33,563 bases of DNA from Candidatus Sulfopaludibacter sp. SbA3 (GTDB lineage Bacteria > Acidobacteriota > Terriglobia > 20CM-2-55-15), in NCBI GenBank assembly GCA_945865815.1, contig CAMBFR010000037.1:1-33563 (forward strand), in the 5' to 3' direction. Numbering within the stretch: position 1 is the stretch's first letter; the number at the start of each line of letters is the position of its first letter. Positions 10,972-21,658 of the stretch are shown piece by piece. The notes beneath the pieces are model-generated. The model did no database searches and had not been told where the DNA came from. It saw only the letters and a list, made by a program, of their open reading frames with translations. The position numbers and the translations under genes are program-made.

Positions 10972-13900
10972 TCACCGGTTGGCCGCGCTATTTCGATAAG
11001 GCCGAAAGTCGAGGAGACATTTGCTGCGCCGGAGAAAGTCCATAAAGCGCCGGTATTCTTTCGCCCGCAGATGGAAGCTCGACGCAAGGTCTTTGTAAGA
11101 GCCGCGTGTGGATCGAAGGCCGAGATCGACCAGCGCGGTTACCTTCTCGCGGGAAATATCGCGCTTCTTGTATCTGTCTTGCACGGCAGACCAGAAGCTC
11201 TTTCTTCCCTCGATGAGATCGTTGAACCAGGCGGACACGTCATCGCCGTTAGCGGCTTCCCTATTCTCGCTCCCGGCCGCCACTCCTGTGATGGTTGTAC
11301 TTTTTGAGAGGAAAAACGATCTTTCTACGATGTTCTGAAGTTCCCGGACGTTACCCGGAAAATTGTAGGCCGATAATCCATCGAAAAAGCCGGCTGCAAG
11401 ATGTTTCCTCGTTTTGTTTGCGGCGTTCAAACGATCCAAAAGTGTTTGTGCCAGATGTGGGATGTCTTCGCGTCGGTTTCGAAGGGCAGGAAGCGTGATA
11501 TGCAGCACCTTGAGCCGATAAAGCAAATCGCTTCGGAATCGCTTTTCCTGGACGAGTTTGTCGAGGTCGCAGTTTGTGGCTGCAATCAAACGAACGTCTA
11601 CCGGCCGGGCGCGCGTTTCACCAATCCGCCGTATTTCGCGTTCCTGGATCACCCTGAGGAGTTTCGCCTGCAAACTTGGGGTCGTATTTCCGATCTCATC
11701 GAGAAAGATGGTTCCCTTATTCGCGGCTTCAAAGAGTCCGGGCCGATCGGTAACGGCGCCGGTAAACGCGCCTTTTTGGGAACCGAACAATTCGCTCTCG
11801 ATCAGCGTTTCGGGAATAGCTCCGCAGTCGACGGCAATAAACGGGCCTGAAGCCCGGCCGCTGCACTTATGAATGGCCTTGGCTACCAGTTCCTTGCCTG
11901 TCCCACTCTCCCCTTCTATCAGGACGGTGGTTCCGGACCGCGCGGCTGTTTCCACGTGCAAATAGACTTGCCGCATCACTTTGGAGTTTCCGACCATACC
12001 GTGAAACTCGGTGGCCTGAGTGGATGGACGTGGTTCCGTATTCCGGGCTTCGATCTGATCCAATGCTCCGCTGGCAACTGTGCCCAGAATCGTCAAAAAC
12101 TCCAGTTCCTTTTCCGCCAGAGGCGGCTCGATGGGTCGGCATGACACGTAGACGCCGCCGCTATGGCGTTCAGACTGGAATGGAACCCATGCAACCGTAT
12201 CTTTGGTGGGATTCTTTTCGCTTCCGAAATAGATCCTGCCCCTTGCTTTGTCACTCAGGCCGGCGACCCTTTTCGTCAACTCCTGTGAAAGCTTAACGCG
12301 GACGGGATGCCAGTCTATCCTGTCGCCGCGCTTCAACATGACCACAGCCCTGCGCCGAATGCTCGTGTCGAGTGTCTGGACCAGAGACGACGCAAAAGAG
12401 TCGACATCCTTGGCGACACCCGCGGAGACAGTCAATCGGTAGAGTCCCCGGAAGAGCCTGTCATCCTGGTGCGCCTCTCGCATTTCTCCATGCAGCGCCA
12501 GGACCGGCAGCTCAACTTGTTTTACACACTCATCAAGCAGCCGCCGCGCCTCCTTTCTCCACGACTTCGCCATATACCGCGCCCTGAATTTGAGCGGTAC
12601 CTGCTCGAGCAACTCCGTCGTGGTTGACGTGCTCTTGAGCAAGTATTCCTTCGCAGTCAGATAATGCCCACGCTGCATCTGATGAGCGCCAATATGAAAC
12701 GCACTCTCCGCAACCAACTCCGGCATCCCAATCTCCGACGCCAACCGAAACGCCTGGGCGAGGAAGCGCGCTCTTTGAGAACTTGCTTCTGCGGCCAATC
12801 CACGTATTAGAGCCGCGGTCGCCATGAGTGGCTTGTAACCCTGCCGGGCAGCAGTGTTGTAGCTTTGCGATGCCTCCTTCCATGCCTCCGAGCGTCTACC
12901 AAAGGCGAGGAATGACCTGGCCAATTCCAGTTCGATCTTGCACTGCTGATAAACAGTCTCTGAGTCAGCTGAAATCCGGAGTCTTTGCTGCAAAGACTCA
13001 ATACTTCGAAGAGCCAATTTCTCAAAGCGAGCTCGCAACAGTATTACTTCGGTCTGGTAAAAGCTCGTTTTGAAAATAGCCAGAGTGGCTAGTGAATTAA
13101 GAATACCTTCCGCAATTCCATTAGCGCCAAGCCGGATGTAGATGTCGCATTGTGCCAATCCTATGAACATGTTGTCGGACTGATAGCGTGCATCATCATT
13201 CAGGTCTATCCTTCGGATACTGTCGATTGCTAGGCGATACCGGCCCGATTCGGCGTAGAACAATGCTGCGTCAGCTGTTACTACTTGCAAACTCCTCAGA
13301 TCAAAGCTACGGTCCCTCCTACGAATATTCTTCATTACTTCGATAGCTGCTCTGAAACACTGTTCTGCGCATTCGAAATTTCCAAGCTTCGTTTCAATCG
13401 CGCCCAGATTGCCATTGCATAGGGCTTGGATGGGAACGTAGTTGACTTCACATGCCCATTTCTGTGCCTTCAGTTGAATCTTCCGGGCGAGTTCTAAATG
13501 ACCCATTTGATCTAAACAGAATGAAAGATTGTTCAAATGTGCCCTATTCTTACTCTCCGTTAATACGAAAGTACGCAATAGCTCCGCGGCATCCCGGAAC
13601 TCTGCTTTGCTGAGAAGGAGGTACGCACGAACCTTTTTAACCCGGACGGCGCCTTCGGGAGTCATATTCATGGCGCGCTCCGCCAAAGCGAGGCTTTCTT
13701 CTGCACCGGCGAAATCACCACCTCGCAACAGCGCTTCACTCAGTTGTGCGCGAGCTGTCACCAAGAAAGTAGACTCTGATGGAAGGCAAGTTATCGCACG
13801 CTTGAGGAGTTCAATTCGATCAGCGGCAGCATGTCCGTGCTCGGGTGTCGCCAACAAAACGCAGAGATACGAAGTTGTCTCCGGATCATGCAAAGCTTCG

Positions 13901-16008
13901 CTCGACAAAAGTAACTGCTCATAGATTCGACGAGCAACGGCTTGGTTTCCCATCGCTGCGTAGGACCTTGCCAGTTTTATTGAGTCCTGCAACGATAGTG
14001 AGCGACCGAGATGGGCTGCACAGCGCCCAGCACTCTTGAAGAGTTGCGCTGACTGCTTATACCTCTTTTGTTCAAACTGGTCTCTAGCAAGCTTTCCGTA
14101 TAGAAGGCATGCACATTCGTAGAGTCGACCTTTGAACGCATGGTAAGCCCTCAGTGTCTCGTCGCCCGTATCGGTGTGCTCTAGAGCGCGGTATGCGGAA
14201 GCGTGAAGACGCGTCCTTCTGGAATTCGAGAGTCGAGCATATACCTTGTTCCGGACGCTTGGGTATCTTATGGCTAAGCCGGCAGTTGAGCGTTCGGCCA
14301 AACCTGACGCAAGAAGCCTGCCGACACTATCCTTAAACAAGTCCCCTCGAATCTGAGCAATTTCTTGAATGGTCGAATAGGCAATTGGGCGGTCAAACAC
14401 CGAGAGGATCTGACACACCGTGCGACTCATTCTCGGCAGTCTAGTCAGTTTGGATTGAACCAACCTGTCCACCGACAACGGCAATTCGTGATGCGATAAG
14501 AGAGGGTCTTTACATCCCAAATAGCCCTGGATGAAATATGGATTTCCCGCAGCCAGTTCTACAATGCGATTCTGACGATCACTCGATTCTTCAAAATAAC
14601 TTACCAGTGTCCGTGAGTCTTCTCTGTTCAGAGGTGGAAGAAAGACTTGCAGCAATTCATTGCCGAGAGACGAAAGAGAGACATCTTCTGGGAATTCAGG
14701 TTGCTTCGTAACAATGAGGTGGATCGGTGTCTCGGAAGCTCGATAACACATTTGTCGTACAAGCTGAACCGTTAGGGCCGTTGCGAAATGAAAATCCTCG
14801 ATAACAAGAGTGAGCCGCCGGTTTCTGGATAATTTGTGGAAGAGGGAAACTAGGTCATTGAGGGTGCGCTCAACTGGATAGTTTGTAGTCACTGCTATCG
14901 AGACATTAGTCTTGTCGTCGGAAAACAGATATGGAATCTGCGAACGCAATGGACCAAGTTCTTGCGCAAGGCTGGCCCTGTACGTAGGCGCTTGAAGCTC
15001 TAATACTGTCTTGAGTCCGCCTATTATTGCCTTAAGTTCATTCTCCTTCGAATCCTCGCAGCGCGTATAGATGAACGCATCACTGGAAAAACGACTTCTT
15101 GAATGCAATTCTTCAATAAACCGAGTCTTGCCAACTCCGGCTTGTCCCTCAACTACGGCTACTCTTAATCCGGTGGGACCGTGTCCCCGGAAAAAGGTCT
15201 CAACCTTCGCGATCTCTGTCTCGCGTCCGACAATCGGAGCTCGTTCTGCACTGAAACATCGTGATTTGTAGCTGCGGAGAAGTGCCGAATAGCCCGCTTG
15301 CCGCTTCTGCGGATTCTTGTGCACTAGCTGTGCAATCGCATCTGAAAGGCTTTTGTCGATCAGGCAAACACTACTCAGGGGTTTTGGGGCAGCCCACATG
15401 TACTTAAATCTAAGGTTCTCCAGAGCGATGTCCTGAAACGGATCCTTACGAGAAAAATAGCGATACAGAAGAACGCCCAGTGAGTAGTAGTCGCTCTCCG
15501 AACTCGGATTTTGCCCCGCGAGTACTTCCGGTGCGACAAATCTAATGTCTTCTTCAGTTAATTGGGTATCTCCCGCCGCAAAAGGCAAGGGGTCAGCCAA
15601 TTTCAGCCGACCGGACGACGCAAACAGATTCGACGGCCGAATTCTTCCGTGAACTAGTCCTCTGGAGTGAATGAATGAGACTGCATTGACTAAGTCCCCG
15701 ATGGAATCAGGTCTTACCATTGAGAGTGACTGTGAATCGGGAAAATGCTCACGAACCAAATACAAGTGCTGTTTGGGAGTCAAACCAGCCTCAAATAGGT
15801 TGGCCAAGAGCGGATGTTTAGTGCCTACGTGCCATGAAAAAAAAGCCAGCAAAGCGTTGCGATCGCAGCTGAAGGTGGTTCTGGGGAAAATTTTGAGCAC
15901 AACATTGGATCTGCCACACTCGCGATCATTCACAAGAAAAGTACCGCCTCTTTGAGACTCCTTGAAAGATCGAATTGGTTCAAAACGCGGTGAAAGGGTG
16001 AACTTCAT
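10972..16008 (-). CDS. Giant sigma-54 activator: pseudokinase, AAA, TPR, GAF, AAA+
   Basis: The 1678-residue cytoplasmic protein has this order: a Ser/Thr kinase-like domain (about 1-250), a signalling NTPase (Walker A GQAGVGKT at 288-295), a long helical/TPR-type region (about 600-1150), a GAF-like region (about 1190-1320), a sigma-54 AAA+ domain (Walker A GESGTGKE at 1366-1373, GAFTGA at 1413-1418, Walker B FLDEIG at 1435-1440), and a C-terminal DNA-binding-type tail. The GAFTGA loop means it can contact sigma-54 RNA polymerase. The kinase domain keeps the ATP lysine (K39), but the HRD motif is HGR (120-122) and DFG is DPL, so the catalytic Asp is missing and it is probably a pseudokinase. 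It starts 91 bases after the HD-GYP gene on the same strand. Its target promoters are not visible here. Confidence 0.9.
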   Translation of the reverse strand: MKFTLSPRFEPIRSFKESQRGGTFLVNDRECGRSNVVLKIFPRTTFSCDRNALLAFFSWHVGTKHPLLANLFEAGLTPKQHLYLVREHFPDSQSLSMVRPDSIGDLVNAVSFIHSRGLVHGRIRPSNLFASSGRLKLADPLPFAAGDTQLTEEDIRFVAPEVLAGQNPSSESDYYSLGVLLYRYFSRKDPFQDIALENLRFKYMWAAPKPLSSVCLIDKSLSDAIAQLVHKNPQKRQAGYSALLRSYKSRCFSAERAPIVGRETEIAKVETFFRGHGPTGLRVAVVEGQAGVGKTRFIEELHSRSRFSSDAFIYTRCEDSKENELKAIIGGLKTVLELQAPTYRASLAQELGPLRSQIPYLFSDDKTNVSIAVTTNYPVERTLNDLVSLFHKLSRNRRLTLVIEDFHFATALTVQLVRQMCYRASETPIHLIVTKQPEFPEDVSLSSLGNELLQVFLPPLNREDSRTLVSYFEESSDRQNRIVELAAGNPYFIQGYLGCKDPLLSHHELPLSVDRLVQSKLTRLPRMSRTVCQILSVFDRPIAYSTIQEIAQIRGDLFKDSVGRLLASGLAERSTAGLAIRYPSVRNKVYARLSNSRRTRLHASAYRALEHTDTGDETLRAYHAFKGRLYECACLLYGKLARDQFEQKRYKQSAQLFKSAGRCAAHLGRSLSLQDSIKLARSYAAMGNQAVARRIYEQLLLSSEALHDPETTSYLCVLLATPEHGHAAADRIELLKRAITCLPSESTFLVTARAQLSEALLRGGDFAGAEESLALAERAMNMTPEGAVRVKKVRAYLLLSKAEFRDAAELLRTFVLTESKNRAHLNNLSFCLDQMGHLELARKIQLKAQKWACEVNYVPIQALCNGNLGAIETKLGNFECAEQCFRAAIEVMKNIRRRDRSFDLRSLQVVTADAALFYAESGRYRLAIDSIRRIDLNDDARYQSDNMFIGLAQCDIYIRLGANGIAEGILNSLATLAIFKTSFYQTEVILLRARFEKLALRSIESLQQRLRISADSETVYQQCKIELELARSFLAFGRRSEAWKEASQSYNTAARQGYKPLMATAALIRGLAAEASSQRARFLAQAFRLASEIGMPELVAESAFHIGAHQMQRGHYLTAKEYLLKSTSTTTELLEQVPLKFRARYMAKSWRKEARRLLDECVKQVELPVLALHGEMREAHQDDRLFRGLYRLTVSAGVAKDVDSFASSLVQTLDTSIRRRAVVMLKRGDRIDWHPVRVKLSQELTKRVAGLSDKARGRIYFGSEKNPTKDTVAWVPFQSERHSGGVYVSCRPIEPPLAEKELEFLTILGTVASGALDQIEARNTEPRPSTQATEFHGMVGNSKVMRQVYLHVETAARSGTTVLIEGESGTGKELVAKAIHKCSGRASGPFIAVDCGAIPETLIESELFGSQKGAFTGAVTDRPGLFEAANKGTIFLDEIGNTTPSLQAKLLRVIQEREIRRIGETRARPVDVRLIAATNCDLDKLVQEKRFRSDLLYRLKVLHITLPALRNRREDIPHLAQTLLDRLNAANKTRKHLAAGFFDGLSAYNFPGNVRELQNIVERSFFLSKSTTITGVAAGSENREAANGDDVSAWFNDLIEGRKSFWSAVQDRYKKRDISREKVTALVDLGLRSTRGSYKDLASSFHLRAKEYRRFMDFLRRSKCLLDFRPYRNSAANR

Positions 16009-16099: not shown

Positions 16100-18550
16100 C
16101 TAATCGGAGGATTGAAAATGCCTAAGCCGACGTTTCACAGCGGAACGTAGTGCGCGGTCGTCGCGCATTTGCCACTCTCCAACTGACAAGAGAGCTTCCA
16201 GGTCACCGCCATCCTCGGGAAAGATAGAAATGCCGATGGATGTAGGCAAGGGAATTTCAGTATCGACGCGGGCTGTAAACCGAAAATGATCAAGGGTATT
16301 CTGCAGACGGGATTTCAGCGCCTCAGCTTGCTCTCGACTTAGTCTGGGACTCAATGCAATGAACTCGTCGTTCGCATAACGAACGAGTAAATCGGTATCT
16401 CTGAGTTCAGATCGAAGATATTTAGCCACGGACCGGATGGCTTCATCGCCCAGCATATAACCCCACCGTCTTCTGATGACCTTTAAGTCGTCAAGATTTA
16501 TGGTTAAGAGAGCGACCGGATACTCATATCTCTGTGCGTCCATCACAATCTGATCGAACATCAGGTACAGCTGAAAACCGTTTGGTACTCCGGTGAGCGA
16601 ATCGAATAGGACCGTCTCATCGCCGATCGCCTTCGTGCACTTCGAAAGAGCGAGGGCGGTCTGAGAAGCAACAATCTCCAAACGTCGGAACTCTTCCTCA
16701 GTAAACTTCACCTTTTCTTTTCGATAAAGAGACACTGCTCCGTAGACGGTCCCGCTTCGATGTATTGGGACGATCGCGGACAGCTCAAAGTCAGGACGAG
16801 GTTCAGAACAACCCAGAAAATCGGGGAATGGAGGTAAGTTGCACAGAGCCTGCCTATTTGCTGCGACCCAACCTGTCAATTTTTGCTCTAGTCCTAAACT
16901 CATGGTCTCTAGCCCTGAAGCATGTAGCCCCAGCACATGTTCCGCAGTGACTATTCCTCTGTCTAGATCTGCCATAAAAAATATGCCCGCATCGAAAGTA
17001 ATGAGGTTGCTGAGTTTCGAACCAACGAACGTGAGTACATCTTTAGCCGTGAGGCATTGGATTTCAGCGCGAGCAAATTCGAAAATTGAATACAGTTCAC
17101 GCTGAACTTCCGCTCCAGCGTGCAGCGCTTTGCCATAAGTCACGATTGGCTGTACGCGTTCTAGTTTTCGTATGTCAGGGCCCTCAGGCTGCACTTCTAT
17201 GCGCCAAGGGTCGATTTCAGGTATTTCGACAGCCCGCCCAGCGGCACTAATTGTGTCAAGGTTGTTAACAAACATTTCCACGATTTTGGGATCGTAGGCA
17301 CGCCCTGATTCACGATGAAAGAACTCGACGACTTGCTGCCTGTTCATCGGCGCACGGTAAGGTCGATCAGTCGTTAGAGCGTCATAGCAGTCGACTAAGG
17401 AAAGGATGCGCGCGCTTAACGGAATCTCCTCTCCAAACAATCCATCCGGGTAGCCCTTGCCATCCCATCGTTCGTGATGAGACTTGACGATTGGTATGAC
17501 TGGATACGGGAAGTTGATGTTCTTGAGCATATTGGCACCAACGACCGGATGGATCTTCATTTTCTCGAACTCGGTTTCCGTCAATACTGTTGGCTTATTC
17601 AGAATGTACTCGGGAATCGCTATTTTCCCTATGTCGTGCAGCAAGGCCCCAGCCCTGATCGCCATTACTTCCTTATCTCCAACTATTCCCATGCACTTCC
17701 CGAGTGTCACCGCATACGCCTGAACCCGGCGGATGTGCCCATGCGTGTACTTGTCCTTGGCGTCGACGACATCGGCCATAGCCTCAATAGCTTGGAGATA
17801 GAGTTCATTGAGTTCAGAGATGTGTACTTGAGCCTGTTGGTACTTTTCCACATAAAAGGCGTAGAGCTGGTAAAGAACGACAGCTACAGGGAGGGATAAC
17901 AGAAATATGGAGAATCCAGCACGTTCAAGAAAAAGCGAAATGAGGCCCGCGGCTGCTGCTGATCCGAAAAAATTAAGCAGATAGAGGCCAAGACCCTCTT
18001 GCCAAACGCTTAGAAATGAATCGCCGGAGGAGAAGGCCAAGGCCAATGAAATCGTGCAAGTGTTGATAACGAACCAGACCAGAGCGACTGTGCCGAGACC
18101 TAAGATCAGGTCAGCAGGATAGCCAAACCCATGCTGACTAGCAAATGCATAGGCCTGCGCCATCGCCCATATTGACAGTGCGGAGCATGCCAAATTGAAC
18201 AGCAACCTGTGCATCGACATGCCCGATAAGGAAGGCCAACCATAACGTCGGACATTATTTGTAAGGGCTGTTGCAATGATATTAGCCCAATACGCTAACA
18301 GTGCGGGCCCAGGACCGAAGTGTATAAGGGCCAAAAACGTGAAGACATCGCCCATTGAAATGACGACCGAAGGCAGTTGTGGCAAATGCAGGTTTATCGT
18401 GGCTACAAACAAGGAAGCTAAAACGAAGAGGACCCAGGTGGCCGAATAGTCTCCACCATCCCTCAGTACAAAATAAGCAAAAGGGATGGCTAGGATGTAG
18501 ACCAGCACAAGATACGCTTTGCACCGGTTAGGCAGAGTTCGCCAGTCCAT
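16100..18550 (-). CDS. Membrane HD-GYP / GAF / degenerate GGDEF protein
   Basis: The 816-residue protein has about six to eight N-terminal membrane segments (to about residue 232), then an HD-GYP domain (about 255-430), a GAF domain (about 480-635) and a GGDEF domain (about 645-810). HD-GYP residues look complete: LLHDIGK (H305, D306), HHERWDGKGYP (358-368) and the following D-rich SLVDCYDALT. This predicts c-di-GMP phosphodiesterase activity. The GGDEF signature is ANDEF (726-730), so cyclase activity is doubtful, but the I-site RxxD (RDTD, 717-720) is at the canonical five-residue spacing, so c-di-GMP binding may persist. It sits just downstream of a peptide gene controlled by c-di-GMP riboswitches. 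A hairpin lies between them. Confidence 0.92.
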   Translation of the reverse strand: MDWRTLPNRCKAYLVLVYILAIPFAYFVLRDGGDYSATWVLFVLASLFVATINLHLPQLPSVVISMGDVFTFLALIHFGPGPALLAYWANIIATALTNNVRRYGWPSLSGMSMHRLLFNLACSALSIWAMAQAYAFASQHGFGYPADLILGLGTVALVWFVINTCTISLALAFSSGDSFLSVWQEGLGLYLLNFFGSAAAAGLISLFLERAGFSIFLLSLPVAVVLYQLYAFYVEKYQQAQVHISELNELYLQAIEAMADVVDAKDKYTHGHIRRVQAYAVTLGKCMGIVGDKEVMAIRAGALLHDIGKIAIPEYILNKPTVLTETEFEKMKIHPVVGANMLKNINFPYPVIPIVKSHHERWDGKGYPDGLFGEEIPLSARILSLVDCYDALTTDRPYRAPMNRQQVVEFFHRESGRAYDPKIVEMFVNNLDTISAAGRAVEIPEIDPWRIEVQPEGPDIRKLERVQPIVTYGKALHAGAEVQRELYSIFEFARAEIQCLTAKDVLTFVGSKLSNLITFDAGIFFMADLDRGIVTAEHVLGLHASGLETMSLGLEQKLTGWVAANRQALCNLPPFPDFLGCSEPRPDFELSAIVPIHRSGTVYGAVSLYRKEKVKFTEEEFRRLEIVASQTALALSKCTKAIGDETVLFDSLTGVPNGFQLYLMFDQIVMDAQRYEYPVALLTINLDDLKVIRRRWGYMLGDEAIRSVAKYLRSELRDTDLLVRYANDEFIALSPRLSREQAEALKSRLQNTLDHFRFTARVDTEIPLPTSIGISIFPEDGGDLEALLSVGEWQMRDDRALRSAVKRRLRHFQSSD

Positions 18551-18581: not shown

Positions 18582-18615
18582 GCGCCTCAGACGAAAGTCC
18601 TTGCGTCTGAGGCGC
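18582..18615 (-). other. Strong intercistronic hairpin
   Basis: A perfect 12-bp inverted repeat (GCGCCTCAGACG at 18582-18593 with its complement at 18604-18615) surrounds a 10-base loop. It lies between the stop of the 44-residue peptide gene and the HD-GYP start. No T-tract follows on the minus strand, so it is unlikely to be a full intrinsic terminator. It could protect the peptide mRNA 3' end or reduce read-through into the HD-GYP gene, letting the peptide be made in excess. Confidence 0.65.
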
Positions 18616-18632: not shown

Positions 18633-18767
18633 TTAGATCCAGATTACGCTGTAATGTTCTTTCTTGGCCGTTCGACCATTCACTTCCCACTGAGCGCTGG
18701 GTGCAACCTTGTTTTCGAGTTCTTCGATTTCAGACAATTCAGTAGCAACGATGGTTATCTCACTCAT
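18633..18767 (-). CDS. 44-residue peptide under c-di-GMP riboswitches
   Basis: I do not recognise this peptide. It starts at 18767 with a very good ribosome site (GGAGGAG, seven bases upstream). The product begins MSEITIVATELSEIEELENK, an acidic, probably helical N-terminal half that could act as a leader. The second half contains Trp27, a basic patch (RTAKKEH, 32-38) and a hydrophobic end SVIWI. There is no cysteine, no signal peptide and no membrane segment. It is the first gene after two c-di-GMP-I aptamers and a terminator. On the same strand upstream is a PqqD-like/M50/HlyD fusion, which suggests a precursor peptide that is bound, cut and exported. That role is inference; a small regulator is also possible. 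A 102-residue frame from 18941 is rejected because it reads through the terminator hairpin. Confidence 0.8.
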   Translation of the reverse strand: MSEITIVATELSEIEELENKVAPSAQWEVNGRTAKKEHYSVIWI

Positions 18768-18863
18768 GGTTTTGCTCCTCCAGTAAATTATTGAGTTAAA
18801 TTCTTGTTCCGGCAGTTGATTGTAGTGGCCACTTAAAAGCGATCCCCGTTTGTGGATTTGATC

Positions 18864-18910
18864 CAAAAATAGAAACGGGCTGCCTCGAGGCGAATGCCTC
18901 TGGCAGCCCG
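18864..18910 (-). terminator. Intrinsic terminator, riboswitch expression platform
   Basis: On the minus strand, CGGGCTGCC (18910-18902) pairs with GGCAGCCCG (18884-18876), enclosing an inner stem GAGGC/GCCTC with a four-base loop. It is followed directly by a T-rich run (18875-18866, TTTCTATTTT). It lies 27 bases after the proximal aptamer and about 100 bases before the peptide start, which is where a transcription-control platform is expected. A GUAGCC at 18961-18956, inside the aptamer's third helix, could pair with GGCUGC of the terminator's 5' arm as an antiterminator. That would make ligand binding favour termination, but the polarity is not proven. Confidence 0.85.
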
Positions 18911-18937
18911 ACTGACATGGTCGACACGAGCAGCCCA

Positions 18938-19020
18938 ACAAAGTTCAACAGTTTTGGCTACACATGCTGACGGTAGTCTCGAAGCTTTGCGTCCCCGTCT
19001 TTCAACGGGTTTGCCTTTGT
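18938..19020 (-). ncRNA. c-di-GMP-I (GEMM-I) riboswitch, proximal copy
   Basis: On the minus strand the RNA contains GGCAAACC, a hairpin capped by a GAAA tetraloop (CCGUU-GAAA-GACGG), and GGGACGCAAAGC, the diagnostic GEMM-I conserved core. The outer helix is formed by ACAAAG (19020-19015) with CUUUGU (18943-18938). A CUAC/GUAG pair fits the third helix. The length of 83 bases is normal for the class. This copy is followed by a terminator and then the 44-residue peptide gene. The class is known to bind cyclic di-GMP. Confidence 0.9.
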
Positions 19021-19082
19021 CAGGAGGAATGCTCGGGTGGAGGGGCAACCACTTTCTCAGTAAACAAGGTCGCCATCTCCTA

Positions 19083-19179
19083 CCTCTGGCGGCCCAACCA
19101 GCGTGGCCCGCTTACTCCAGCGGACTTTAGCTTTGCGGCTTTGCGTCTCCGTTTTTCAACGGGTTTGCCTGTACAAAGG
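19083..19179 (-). ncRNA. c-di-GMP-I (GEMM-I) riboswitch, distal copy
   Basis: This is a second, independent aptamer about 60 bases upstream of the proximal one. It has GGCAAACC, a CCGUU-GAAA-AACGG tetraloop hairpin and GACGCAAAGC, plus a GGUUGGG near the 3' side. The outer helix appears to be CCUUU (19179-19175) with AGAGG (19087-19083). The segment between the aptamers shows no T-tract terminator, so this copy seems to work together with the proximal one rather than having its own platform. Outside the core hairpins the two copies differ clearly, so they are not a recent duplication. Confidence 0.84.
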
Positions 19180-19227
19180 ATTCAGACTTACGTTTCTAGG
19201 ACAAAAGAGCGGAAAGCTAAACTAAAA

Positions 19228-19256
19228 ATACTAAAACTTTGGAAAAATCTTGTCAG
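19228..19256 (-). promoter_or_regulatory. Candidate sigma-70 promoter for the riboswitch/peptide transcript
   Basis: CTGACA (19256-19251) and TAGTAT (19233-19228) are separated by 17 bases in an AT-rich stretch right after the M50 gene stop. A start near 19221 would give a leader of about 450 bases holding both aptamers. The -10 box matches only four of six positions, so read-through from the M50 gene on the same strand remains possible. Confidence 0.45.
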
Positions 19257-19276
19257 GCATGGTACCGGCGGAAGGT

Positions 19277-21658
19277 TCAGGGCAGGAGATACCAGAATTC
19301 GGTCCGGATCCAGCGAACTATCCGGCGCGTCATTAAATCAATGATGCGGCGCTCGCCACAATAGATATGGGCAACGCCGGTCATATCCGGCTTCAACATC
19401 AATCCATCGTTGGGTACCTCGCTCCGGACCACAACCATCTGCTGCTCGTTTACGGACTGCGCTACAGGTGCAATGAAGTCCACGCGTCCTTGAATTTCCA
19501 GCGACGGGAAGCTGCGCGGCTTCATCCGGATTTCATTGCCTGGCCGCACATCCGCGAGTTCTTTTTCAGGTACCAGCATTTCTACAGTCACGCGGCTGAT
19601 TTCCACGAGGCGCATCAGTTCGTCGCCTGCCTCCAAAAACTCGTTAAGCTTGCGCTCTACGAACGGAGTAGCCACCACACCGTCGATCGGCGCCCGCACT
19701 TCGGTCCTGCCGAGTTCCTCGCTCAGGTTGTCCACCTGGGTCTGCAGCTTCCCTACCTCGGCCTCCGTCTGGCGGATCAACTCCGGGCGATTCCCTGCCT
19801 GCATGAGCCTCAATTCGCTCTCAGCTTCGGCGAGCTCGCGGGCTTTCAAATCGGCTTCGCGATCGCCGGTCTCGGAAACGACGCGGATCGACGCTTCAAT
19901 CTCGGCGATTTCGTTTTCACGGACGCGGACCGCGGTTTCGGCTTTGTCCAGCTCGGACCGCGCTATCAAGCCACCGCCGAACAACTCGCGCGCGCGTCTA
20001 CGGTTTTGCTCGTCGAGCTGCAGCTCCGAGCGCTTCCGTTCGAGCACTTGCGCCAATTGGTTGCGCTGCTCCTGGTTGCGGCGGGCGTTGCCGAGTTCGA
20101 CGCGCTTGGTTTCCACAAGCTTCTGCTTGCGGTCGAGTTCCTCGGCCCTTGCGCCGGCGCGCAGGAGCGTGAGCGCGGTCTTTCTGGTTTCCAGGTCGCC
20201 ACTCAACTCGGAAATGCGCTGCTGCTTGGCAAAATCGCGCAGCCGCGCCAGAAGATCGCCCTTGGTCACCCGGCTTCCTTCACGCACCAGCATGTCAACG
20301 ATGATTCCATCCGTCTCGGCCCGGACCGCAATTTCGCTGCGGGCTACAATCTTGAACTCGGCCGGAATCTTGAGCTCCCAGCGTCCCACAAACGCCACCA
20401 GAAGGGCGACCGCCACAATTCCTGCATTCCGATATTTTCGAAAAGCGGCACGACTGATCACGGCCCGTACTCCGGCCATGGATTCCATAGCCGTTCTTCT
20501 CAAGGTTAATGTGGAAAACATCATGAAACCGACGAACCCGGCAAAGGCCCAGTTGGACGTCGCCCAAGTATACAAGGCGCCATACACATATATTAATAAG
20601 GTTGTGGAAAACACGAGCGAGGCCAGGCCGTACGTCAATTGCGCCCGGTCTTCCCTCCACGGGCGCCGGGATGGATGCTTCCCTGCTTTCCCTCCAATCC
20701 AATTCCATAATGAGTCGATGGACTTCTTCCGAAGGTTCGGAATCTCGAGGTAGTCGCTCAGCATGTAATAACCGTCGAGTTTAATGAGGGGATTGAAATT
20801 CACGAGAGTCTGCAGGCCGGAAAACAGCACGACAATCACGACGATCTGATGGATGAATGCATCCGGGGCGGTTACGCGCCAAACAATCGTGCAGAGTCCC
20901 CAGATAACGAGCTGGAAGTATCCACCTGCCAGAGTCACCAGCATCCGATTGCGTTTCGAAGGGAACATCCAGGAATCGCTTACGTCGCAATAAAAAGCCG
21001 GTTGAAAGTAAATGAGCATGAGGCCGAGTTCATGAACCTTCCCTCCAAAATGACAACACGTCAGGCCATGAGCAAACTCGTGGATGGTGACAATCGTAAA
21101 AACAACAAGCCAGATGAAGAAAAGGCCCTGAATATTGAACAAACTCTCAATGCCTGCGCCTAACTGGTCCCAGTGCAGAAAAGTGAGCGTAAAGCCCGTG
21201 ACGATTGATGCCAGCGCGAACACCTGGAACCACGCTGTAAATGCCCATCGTGTACGCGGAAGCAGCCAGGAGAAGACCTTTTCGGGATTGAGCGAGGCAA
21301 CTTTCCAATAAAAAAAACCTTCCTCGCTGTCGGCGGTCTTGCGGCTCTTGTACGAGGCGAGCTTCTCGCGTCCTTCGGCGCTATCGAGCAGAAGCTTGTC
21401 TTCAAGGGATGCGAAGAATGCCGTTATGGTTGAGGCGGAGACGGCTCGGTCGAGCTTTTCGGCTACACGTGCGGCGACTGTTTCGGCATCAATCGGTTCG
21501 CGGAGCAGGTCCAGAATTGCAGCCTGGCTTTCTGTGAATCGGAAGTACCGCCTGGTGAGTGGGTCCTTGACGACGAGGTATGTCTTGCCTTGCTGCTGCT
21601 GACGGGAGAATTCAAGGTCCGGCCGGAGCTGCACCGCGTAAGACAGGTTCTGCTCCAT
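19277..21658 (-). CDS. PqqD-like / M50 metalloprotease / HlyD adaptor fusion
   Basis: The 793-residue protein has three parts. Residues about 10-95 resemble a PqqD-type winged-helix domain (YFRFTESQAAILDLLREP), a fold that in peptide-modification systems binds precursor leaders. Residues about 130-425 are a multi-pass M50 (site-2 type) protease domain with HEFAH (193-197) and the second metal-ligand motif NPLIKLDGYY (289-298, D295). Residues about 430-770 are a HlyD-like adaptor: a lipoyl half-motif (VRAETDGIIVDMLVREG), a long coiled coil (about 475-650) and a second lipoyl half (VRAPIDGVVATP). The arrangement belongs to the putative peptide zinc metalloprotease group. It probably processes and/or exports a peptide across the inner membrane. 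No ABC ATPase or TolC gene is in the window. The start has no obvious ribosome site. Confidence 0.88.
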   Translation of the reverse strand: MEQNLSYAVQLRPDLEFSRQQQQGKTYLVVKDPLTRRYFRFTESQAAILDLLREPIDAETVAARVAEKLDRAVSASTITAFFASLEDKLLLDSAEGREKLASYKSRKTADSEEGFFYWKVASLNPEKVFSWLLPRTRWAFTAWFQVFALASIVTGFTLTFLHWDQLGAGIESLFNIQGLFFIWLVVFTIVTIHEFAHGLTCCHFGGKVHELGLMLIYFQPAFYCDVSDSWMFPSKRNRMLVTLAGGYFQLVIWGLCTIVWRVTAPDAFIHQIVVIVVLFSGLQTLVNFNPLIKLDGYYMLSDYLEIPNLRKKSIDSLWNWIGGKAGKHPSRRPWREDRAQLTYGLASLVFSTTLLIYVYGALYTWATSNWAFAGFVGFMMFSTLTLRRTAMESMAGVRAVISRAAFRKYRNAGIVAVALLVAFVGRWELKIPAEFKIVARSEIAVRAETDGIIVDMLVREGSRVTKGDLLARLRDFAKQQRISELSGDLETRKTALTLLRAGARAEELDRKQKLVETKRVELGNARRNQEQRNQLAQVLERKRSELQLDEQNRRRARELFGGGLIARSELDKAETAVRVRENEIAEIEASIRVVSETGDREADLKARELAEAESELRLMQAGNRPELIRQTEAEVGKLQTQVDNLSEELGRTEVRAPIDGVVATPFVERKLNEFLEAGDELMRLVEISRVTVEMLVPEKELADVRPGNEIRMKPRSFPSLEIQGRVDFIAPVAQSVNEQQMVVVRSEVPNDGLMLKPDMTGVAHIYCGERRIIDLMTRRIVRWIRTEFWYLLP

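Follow-up and report, generated by a model that had tools for sequence, protein, structure and literature searches.

GEMM-I (c-di-GMP-I) riboswitches are known to control genes of motility, adhesion and c-di-GMP turnover. Tandem c-di-GMP-I riboswitches are already known and common, with 347 doublets described (PMC9481103) and with the triple tandem Bc3-5 of Bacillus thuringiensis (PMC4759541). The cooperative architecture with one terminator was listed in the 2022 review of tandem riboswitches for the glycine and guanidine-II classes, not for c-di-GMP-I (PMC9481103). Here, a stretch of 33,563 nucleotides (the window) from a gp5 Acidobacteriota genome was analysed, in which two c-di-GMP-I aptamers lie before the gene of a short peptide. 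The locus was read, with somewhat better than even confidence, as a c-di-GMP-controlled operon in which an ON switch at aptamer 2 is sharpened by aptamer 1, a RiPP-like precursor is the first product and an HD-GYP protein provides feedback.

Two c-di-GMP-I aptamers in series

The whole window was searched by cmscan at the gathering thresholds, and exactly two matches were obtained, both of the c-di-GMP-I type and both on the minus strand. Aptamer 1 (19085..19179, minus strand) matched the full RF01051 model with 61.7 bits (E 6.3e-10) and was aligned with its relatives. Aptamer 2 (18898..19024, minus strand) matched the full RF03167 model (c-di-GMP-I-GGC) with 64.7 bits (E 2.7e-13) and also RF01051 with 70 bits, and the RF01051 cut-off of 35 was thus passed at full length by both copies. 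The two minus-strand GEMM-I cores in series that had been claimed in a first-pass annotation were borne out by these scores; its interval (18938-19179) stops short of position 18898, where aptamer 2 ends on the 3' side. GGCAAACC, a GAAA-capped P2 hairpin and GACGCAAAGC were seen in both copies, as it had described. P1 of aptamer 1 is formed by CCUUUG (19179-19174) and CAGAGG (19088-19083) on the minus strand, the latter strand being CAAAGG in the related genomes G009 and G006, and P3 of aptamer 2 carries an extension that is specific to the window in the alignment with relatives. These two matches were the only ones for c-di-GMP-I in the 4.34-Mb genome, whose gp5 placement rests on its relatives.

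Both aptamers keep the ligand-selecting G (G20 in the Vc2 numbering) together with A47 and the 3' C, the positions being assigned by us from the known Vc2 structure. Since the selecting G is present in both, both should sense c-di-GMP, that is, one ligand and not two. A pair of ligands (c-di-GMP and c-AMP-GMP, the selection between which is discussed in PMC9481103) was rejected on the basis of this G. Of the steeper or two-input response that had been suggested for the series, the two-input part therefore falls, and the steeper part is plausible and matches published tandem c-di-GMP-I riboswitches (PMC4759541, PMC9481103). The GGC variant was also rejected for aptamer 2: the RF03167 consensus reads GACGCGAA, with G after GACGC, and aptamer 2 reads GACGCAAAG, with A47 kept at that place as in ordinary GEMM-I. 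The GGC label was given by the overall score only, and aptamer 2, judged from its sequence, is an ordinary c-di-GMP-I aptamer despite a score above the GGC cut-off. The RNA part of the locus is secure at the level of sequence and fold, and its response to c-di-GMP is a predicted one.

Several aptamers of related genomes were recorded in addition. In aptamer 2 of G006 (L016 1501-1612), the selecting G is replaced by C (ACAAACGCAAACC), so this copy is possibly a ghost aptamer, the tandem being conserved in other respects. The G004 leader (L068, G004:C184, 3560-3800) is a decayed tandem GEMM-I with both cores lost and a peptide gene downstream, in which a remnant of aptamer 1 P3 and a strong terminator are kept. 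In other genomes of the class (L014 and L009, both 1501-2300), GEMM-I elements that stand alone, each with a terminator, precede genes of short-zinc-finger/helix-turn-helix-like regulators.

Terminator, linker and direction of the switch

An intrinsic terminator (18865..18910, minus strand) was found by folding, with an CGGGCUGCC/GGCAGCCCG stem of -29.9 kcal/mol and the U-rich tail UUUCUAUUUUU. It was missed by a rule-based terminator scan, because its rules exclude stems in two parts with a bulge as well as long loops. The folded leader was far more stable than its shuffles (z -4.15), and a strong terminator is also kept in G009 (-31.6 kcal/mol) and G004 (-36.7 kcal/mol). The terminator is followed by the Shine-Dalgarno sequence GGAGGAG (18775..18781, minus strand) and the 44-aa open reading frame, which agrees with the earlier description of one terminator and then a small gene with a strong ribosome site.

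The 5' arm of the terminator, CGGGCUGCC (18910-18902), is at the same time the 3' strand of P3 of aptamer 2, and the ligand should therefore turn expression ON: ligand-bound aptamer 2 would block the terminator, and high c-di-GMP would be the ON state. This overlap is absent from the first-pass annotation, and an ON switch is expected for G009 as well. In the predicted fold at equilibrium the terminator beats aptamer 2, so the decision between ON and OFF must be kinetic.

The linker between the aptamers (19025..19084, minus strand) contains a hairpin and CCCGAGC (19037-19031) and no conserved terminator. The same two-tier hairpin was predicted for the linkers of the window, G009 and G006 (-20.9, -17.5 and -21.2 kcal/mol, respectively), and CCCGAGC at the linker end is invariant in these three genomes. 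In the predicted minimum-energy fold, the P1 strand CCUUUGU of aptamer 1 can pair alternatively with ACAAAGG, with which aptamer 2 starts. From the hairpin linker, this alternative pairing and the lack of a strong terminator belonging to aptamer 1, it follows that aptamer 1 probably sharpens the response; bound aptamer 1 would probably free aptamer 2.

The two aptamers could also be independent riboswitches with one terminator each, a pseudo-cooperative doublet like Bc3-5 and not a device with a single platform, which we regard as a real though less favoured possibility. The 347 described doublets speak for it, c-di-GMP-I being classed in this way (PMC9481103), as does a hairpin of -10.3 kcal/mol with a UUGUUU tail on the 3' side of aptamer 1 in the window, which could be a second, poor terminator. 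This hairpin is, however, imperfect (one mismatch) and is not conserved in G009 and G006, both of which lack a U-run after aptamer 1, and the linkers of all three genomes fold alike and carry CCCGAGC. The shared linker fold, the absence of a U-run in the two relatives and the weakness of the window hairpin favour a single strong platform in which aptamer 1 would tune aptamer 2, a view that is taken here with moderate confidence.

Promoters were also sought before the operon. Sigma-54 consensus sequences were included because a neighbouring protein is a sigma-54 activator; they matched in the window at chance level, with none near 19200-19300. One 9/12 match to the sigma-70 promoter (19256-19228) was not above chance.

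The peptide, its putative exporter and the downstream genes

Just upstream of the riboswitch and the peptide gene lies a gene (19277..21658, minus strand) that was not mentioned in the first-pass annotation. Its 793-aa product was assigned by profiles, AF2 and Foldseek as a fusion of a PqqD-like RiPP recognition element (RRE), an M50 site-2-type protease and an HlyD adaptor (the exporter below). The first 110 residues were modelled by AF2 with a pLDDT of 85, and the 14 best Foldseek matches of this domain in the PDB were all RiPP-recognition proteins (probability 0.84-1.00, with modest E-values, the best being 7e-3), among them PqqD, TbiB1 (with leader peptide), MibB, ThcOx, sactipeptide maturases and TigE. 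The Pfam PqqD match was weak for the window protein (0.07) and 4.7e-5 for one relative. The N-terminal domain thus models as a RiPP recognition element, which supports leader recognition by a chain that also carries the protease and the export adaptor.

The peptide MSEITIVATELSEIEELENKVAPSAQWEVNGRTAKKEHYSVIWI (18633..18767, minus strand) consists of a leader-like EELExKxAP motif and a YxVIW tail. GTDB genomes were scanned with an exporter alignment, which gave 80 loci. The strict motif was present in 49 short open reading frames no more than 4 kb away from the exporter gene (475 kb in all), at 29 of the 80 loci and always on the exporter strand, and it occurred neither in the remaining 474.5 kb nor in shuffled sequence. 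For an outgroup profile, the family peptides were used after removal of all gp5 and family f8 peptides; with this profile the frame of the window peptide ranked first of the 1026 window segments (E 3.6e-4, the next being 0.032). Hosts of the peptide system include Acidobacteriota, Rokubacteria, Verrucomicrobia, Planctomycetes, Zixibacteria, Eisenbacteria, one betaproteobacterial MAG and others. No significant family was found for the window peptide in Pfam and NCBIfam, and the papers searched contained neither EELExRIAP strings nor the combination of PqqD, M50 and HlyD. What had been called an unknown peptide can thus be refined, from its sequence, to a member of an apparently undescribed, multi-phylum family of short peptides that share the conserved motif EELExRIAP and are linked to a protease-exporter with an RRE.

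A conserved leader motif, a variable tail and adjoining genes for putative leader recognition and processing were all found, as for RiPP precursors, and several hosts carry 3-4 paralogues with a constant head and diverse Gly/Asn/Pro-rich tails. The peptide would accordingly be a RiPP-like precursor whose EELExKxAP motif is bound by the PqqD-like domain, and the M50/HlyD fusion would cleave it and help in its export; its maturation, export and function are all inferred. No maturation enzyme was seen beside the peptide gene, two SPASM proteins being encoded elsewhere in the genome, and a Lant_dehydr_N protein gave no match in the genome (nor did any positive control). The peptide may therefore be unmodified. 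This absence of a modification enzyme nearby would also suit a peptide that the upstream protein neither processes nor exports and that works as a partner inside the cell, for instance by regulating the M50/HlyD protein or the kinase/sigma-54 activator described below, as would the tiny C-termini of some peptides (e.g. MVYELRLEELEARIAPSRWGAD) and the linkage to that activator in two families. Such a role is judged unlikely, since recognition element, protease and HlyD adaptor in one chain are the toolkit expected for leader recognition, cleavage and export, and since a constant head with diverse tails is found in precursor peptides.

Two further sets of peptides were observed. In family f8, peptides end in APNVIWVS, APNVIWTGN and APNILWGV (L072 4230-6257, L074 11074-13077 and L075 9507-11429), and the S8 subtilases adjoining them carry C-terminal repeats with the same motif (NVLWSS/NVIWSS/NIIWGG). 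The peptide family has one more locus in this genome and in relatives (L198, G000:C92, 6452-6372 and 6819-6757, minus strand; also L199, L200, L203 and L204). There, EELEAKVAPDGGETVLP peptides, often in pairs, are encoded next to an M17 leucyl aminopeptidase and an aconitase-like protein, and GEMM-I is absent.

Riboswitch and peptide are found together again in three relatives, with a tandem in G009 and G006 and with a single aptamer in G003. The order in G009 is exporter, tandem GEMM-I, MKETYGVIWV, MTDNMNLTNEIILIEELEPKTAPSGLASGVLD, a second MKETYGVIWV and the contig end. In G006, exporter, tandem GEMM-I and MNETYGVIWV run to a contig end, and at another contig end MNENTNILNEITVIEELEEKIAPSGLWDTD is followed by the HD-GYP and kinase genes. 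G003 has the exporter, one GEMM-I, MIEKDAALLLDIVEVEELELKIAPDSGSVPIIE and HD-GYP, and G004 the exporter, the decayed aptamers, the kept terminator, MKENYGVIWTEIIDIEELEAKIAPSGSAAVTED, HD-GYP and kinase. A degenerate DNA pattern for YxVIW was found only at these loci in 11 family genomes. In G009 and G006 the module forms a 10-aa open reading frame of its own, whereas it makes up the N-terminal part of the peptide in G004 and the C-terminal part in the window; the two G009 copies differ by four synonymous and zero non-synonymous changes. As head and tail are separate reading frames in relatives, the window peptide joins the two. Contigs of two MAGs (L039 3678-4016 and the contig ends of L040/L041) break between the riboswitch and the HD-GYP gene, inside a region where peptide reading frames of 10 aa and about 30 aa seem to alternate in an array.

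GEMM-I was not found at the peptide-system locus of the family f8 relatives, and in genomes from other phyla that carry the peptide system, which were searched through 30 loci, none of the GEMM-I loci retrieved lay beside the peptides. The linkage is, as far as searched, confined to one gp5 Acidobacteriota family; this points to a widespread and older peptide cassette that came under c-di-GMP control there.

The first-pass annotation had remarked that the first regulated gene is not a cyclase gene. The first gene is indeed the peptide gene; the statement is incomplete, as 83 nt past it starts an unmentioned gene (16100..18550, minus strand) for an 816-aa membrane HD-GYP/GAF/GGDEF protein (Pfam HD_5 128.6 bits, GGDEF 95.3 bits). 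The HD-GYP motifs are intact (HDIGK at residue 305, HHERWDGKGYP at residue 358), and the GGDEF site is degenerate (RYANDEF), as also in G003, G004 and G006; it is intact in the family f8 relatives. By these motifs the protein is a probable c-di-GMP phosphodiesterase. A 12-bp hairpin after the peptide gene (18582..18615, minus strand, -23.6 kcal/mol) has no U-tract, so read-through into the HD-GYP gene is likely, and the hairpin is probably a stability or processing element. Given the distance of 83 nt, this enzyme of c-di-GMP turnover is probably in the same operon. Read from the mRNA of the peptide, it would lower c-di-GMP, and if it is a phosphodiesterase, c-di-GMP would feed back on its own removal.

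Genes of c-di-GMP turnover are the classic GEMM-I targets. With the HD-GYP gene 83 nt downstream and no U-tract terminator between, the riboswitch might serve the phosphodiesterase as ordinary c-di-GMP feedback, the peptide frame being a leader that can be dispensed with or a translational attenuator. We consider this unlikely. Across phyla, the motif of the peptide is kept next to the exporter, in most cases with no riboswitch, and G004 retains the peptide though its aptamers are lost. The occurrence of YxVIW as a separate reading frame or as an N- or C-terminal fusion is unlike an attenuator. In G003, a terminator-like hairpin with a U-rich tail divides the peptide and HD-GYP genes, which favours the peptide over the enzyme as the output.

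The next gene (10972..16008, minus strand) encodes, according to domain profiles, a 1678-aa Ser/Thr kinase-AAA-TPR-sigma-54 activator; in two families it keeps synteny with the peptide system, of which it may be a regulator.

Comparison with described systems

A wider reading, which is put forward only tentatively, is a cooperative GEMM-I device of two aptamers and one terminator that drives RRE-M50-HlyD/EELExRIAP secretion together with its own phosphodiesterase, the peptides being an undescribed RiPP-like class in at least five phyla. If this were true, entry into the high-c-di-GMP state would release an extracellular peptide. A RiPP-like peptide under GEMM-I control would connect a secreted small molecule or signal directly with c-di-GMP, and a multi-phylum peptide family with a one-protein partner for recognition, proteolysis and export would be a testable new peptide system.

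On the protein side, the fold of PqqD and other RiPP recognition elements is shared by the N-terminal domain of the exporter, the sequence match being marginal (Pfam 0.07). An M50-type protease is shared with RiPP clusters that encode the daptide intramembrane metalloprotease (NF041824) or the epipeptide protease YydH/LiaK (NF058609); the window protease differs from both in its fusion to an HlyD adaptor. The daptide model matched residues 11-387 of the fusion with 228.1 bits, below its curated cut-off of 300, and no daptide precursor or other daptide genes were seen near the locus. A PEARL-type RiPP was rejected, the sole hint being a weak, non-significant match of the peptide motif region to the ammosamide/lymphostin leader NF033737 (E 0.072).

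On the RNA side, two like aptamers, linker structure and probably a single expression platform are shared with the tandem glycine riboswitch, whereas ligand and aptamer are different and cooperativity is here only proposed. With Bc3-5 and the doublets, the locus shares a series of at least two GEMM-I aptamers ahead of a single transcription unit. The published tandems are treated as complete riboswitches with a platform each, whereas the window has a structured linker and one strong terminator and regulates a RiPP-like peptide gene; the linker-joined doublet is thus a natural test of a cooperative GEMM-I with one terminator. The main find is an apparently undescribed peptide family, and what sets the locus apart from known tandems is the regulated product together with the linker-joined arrangement.
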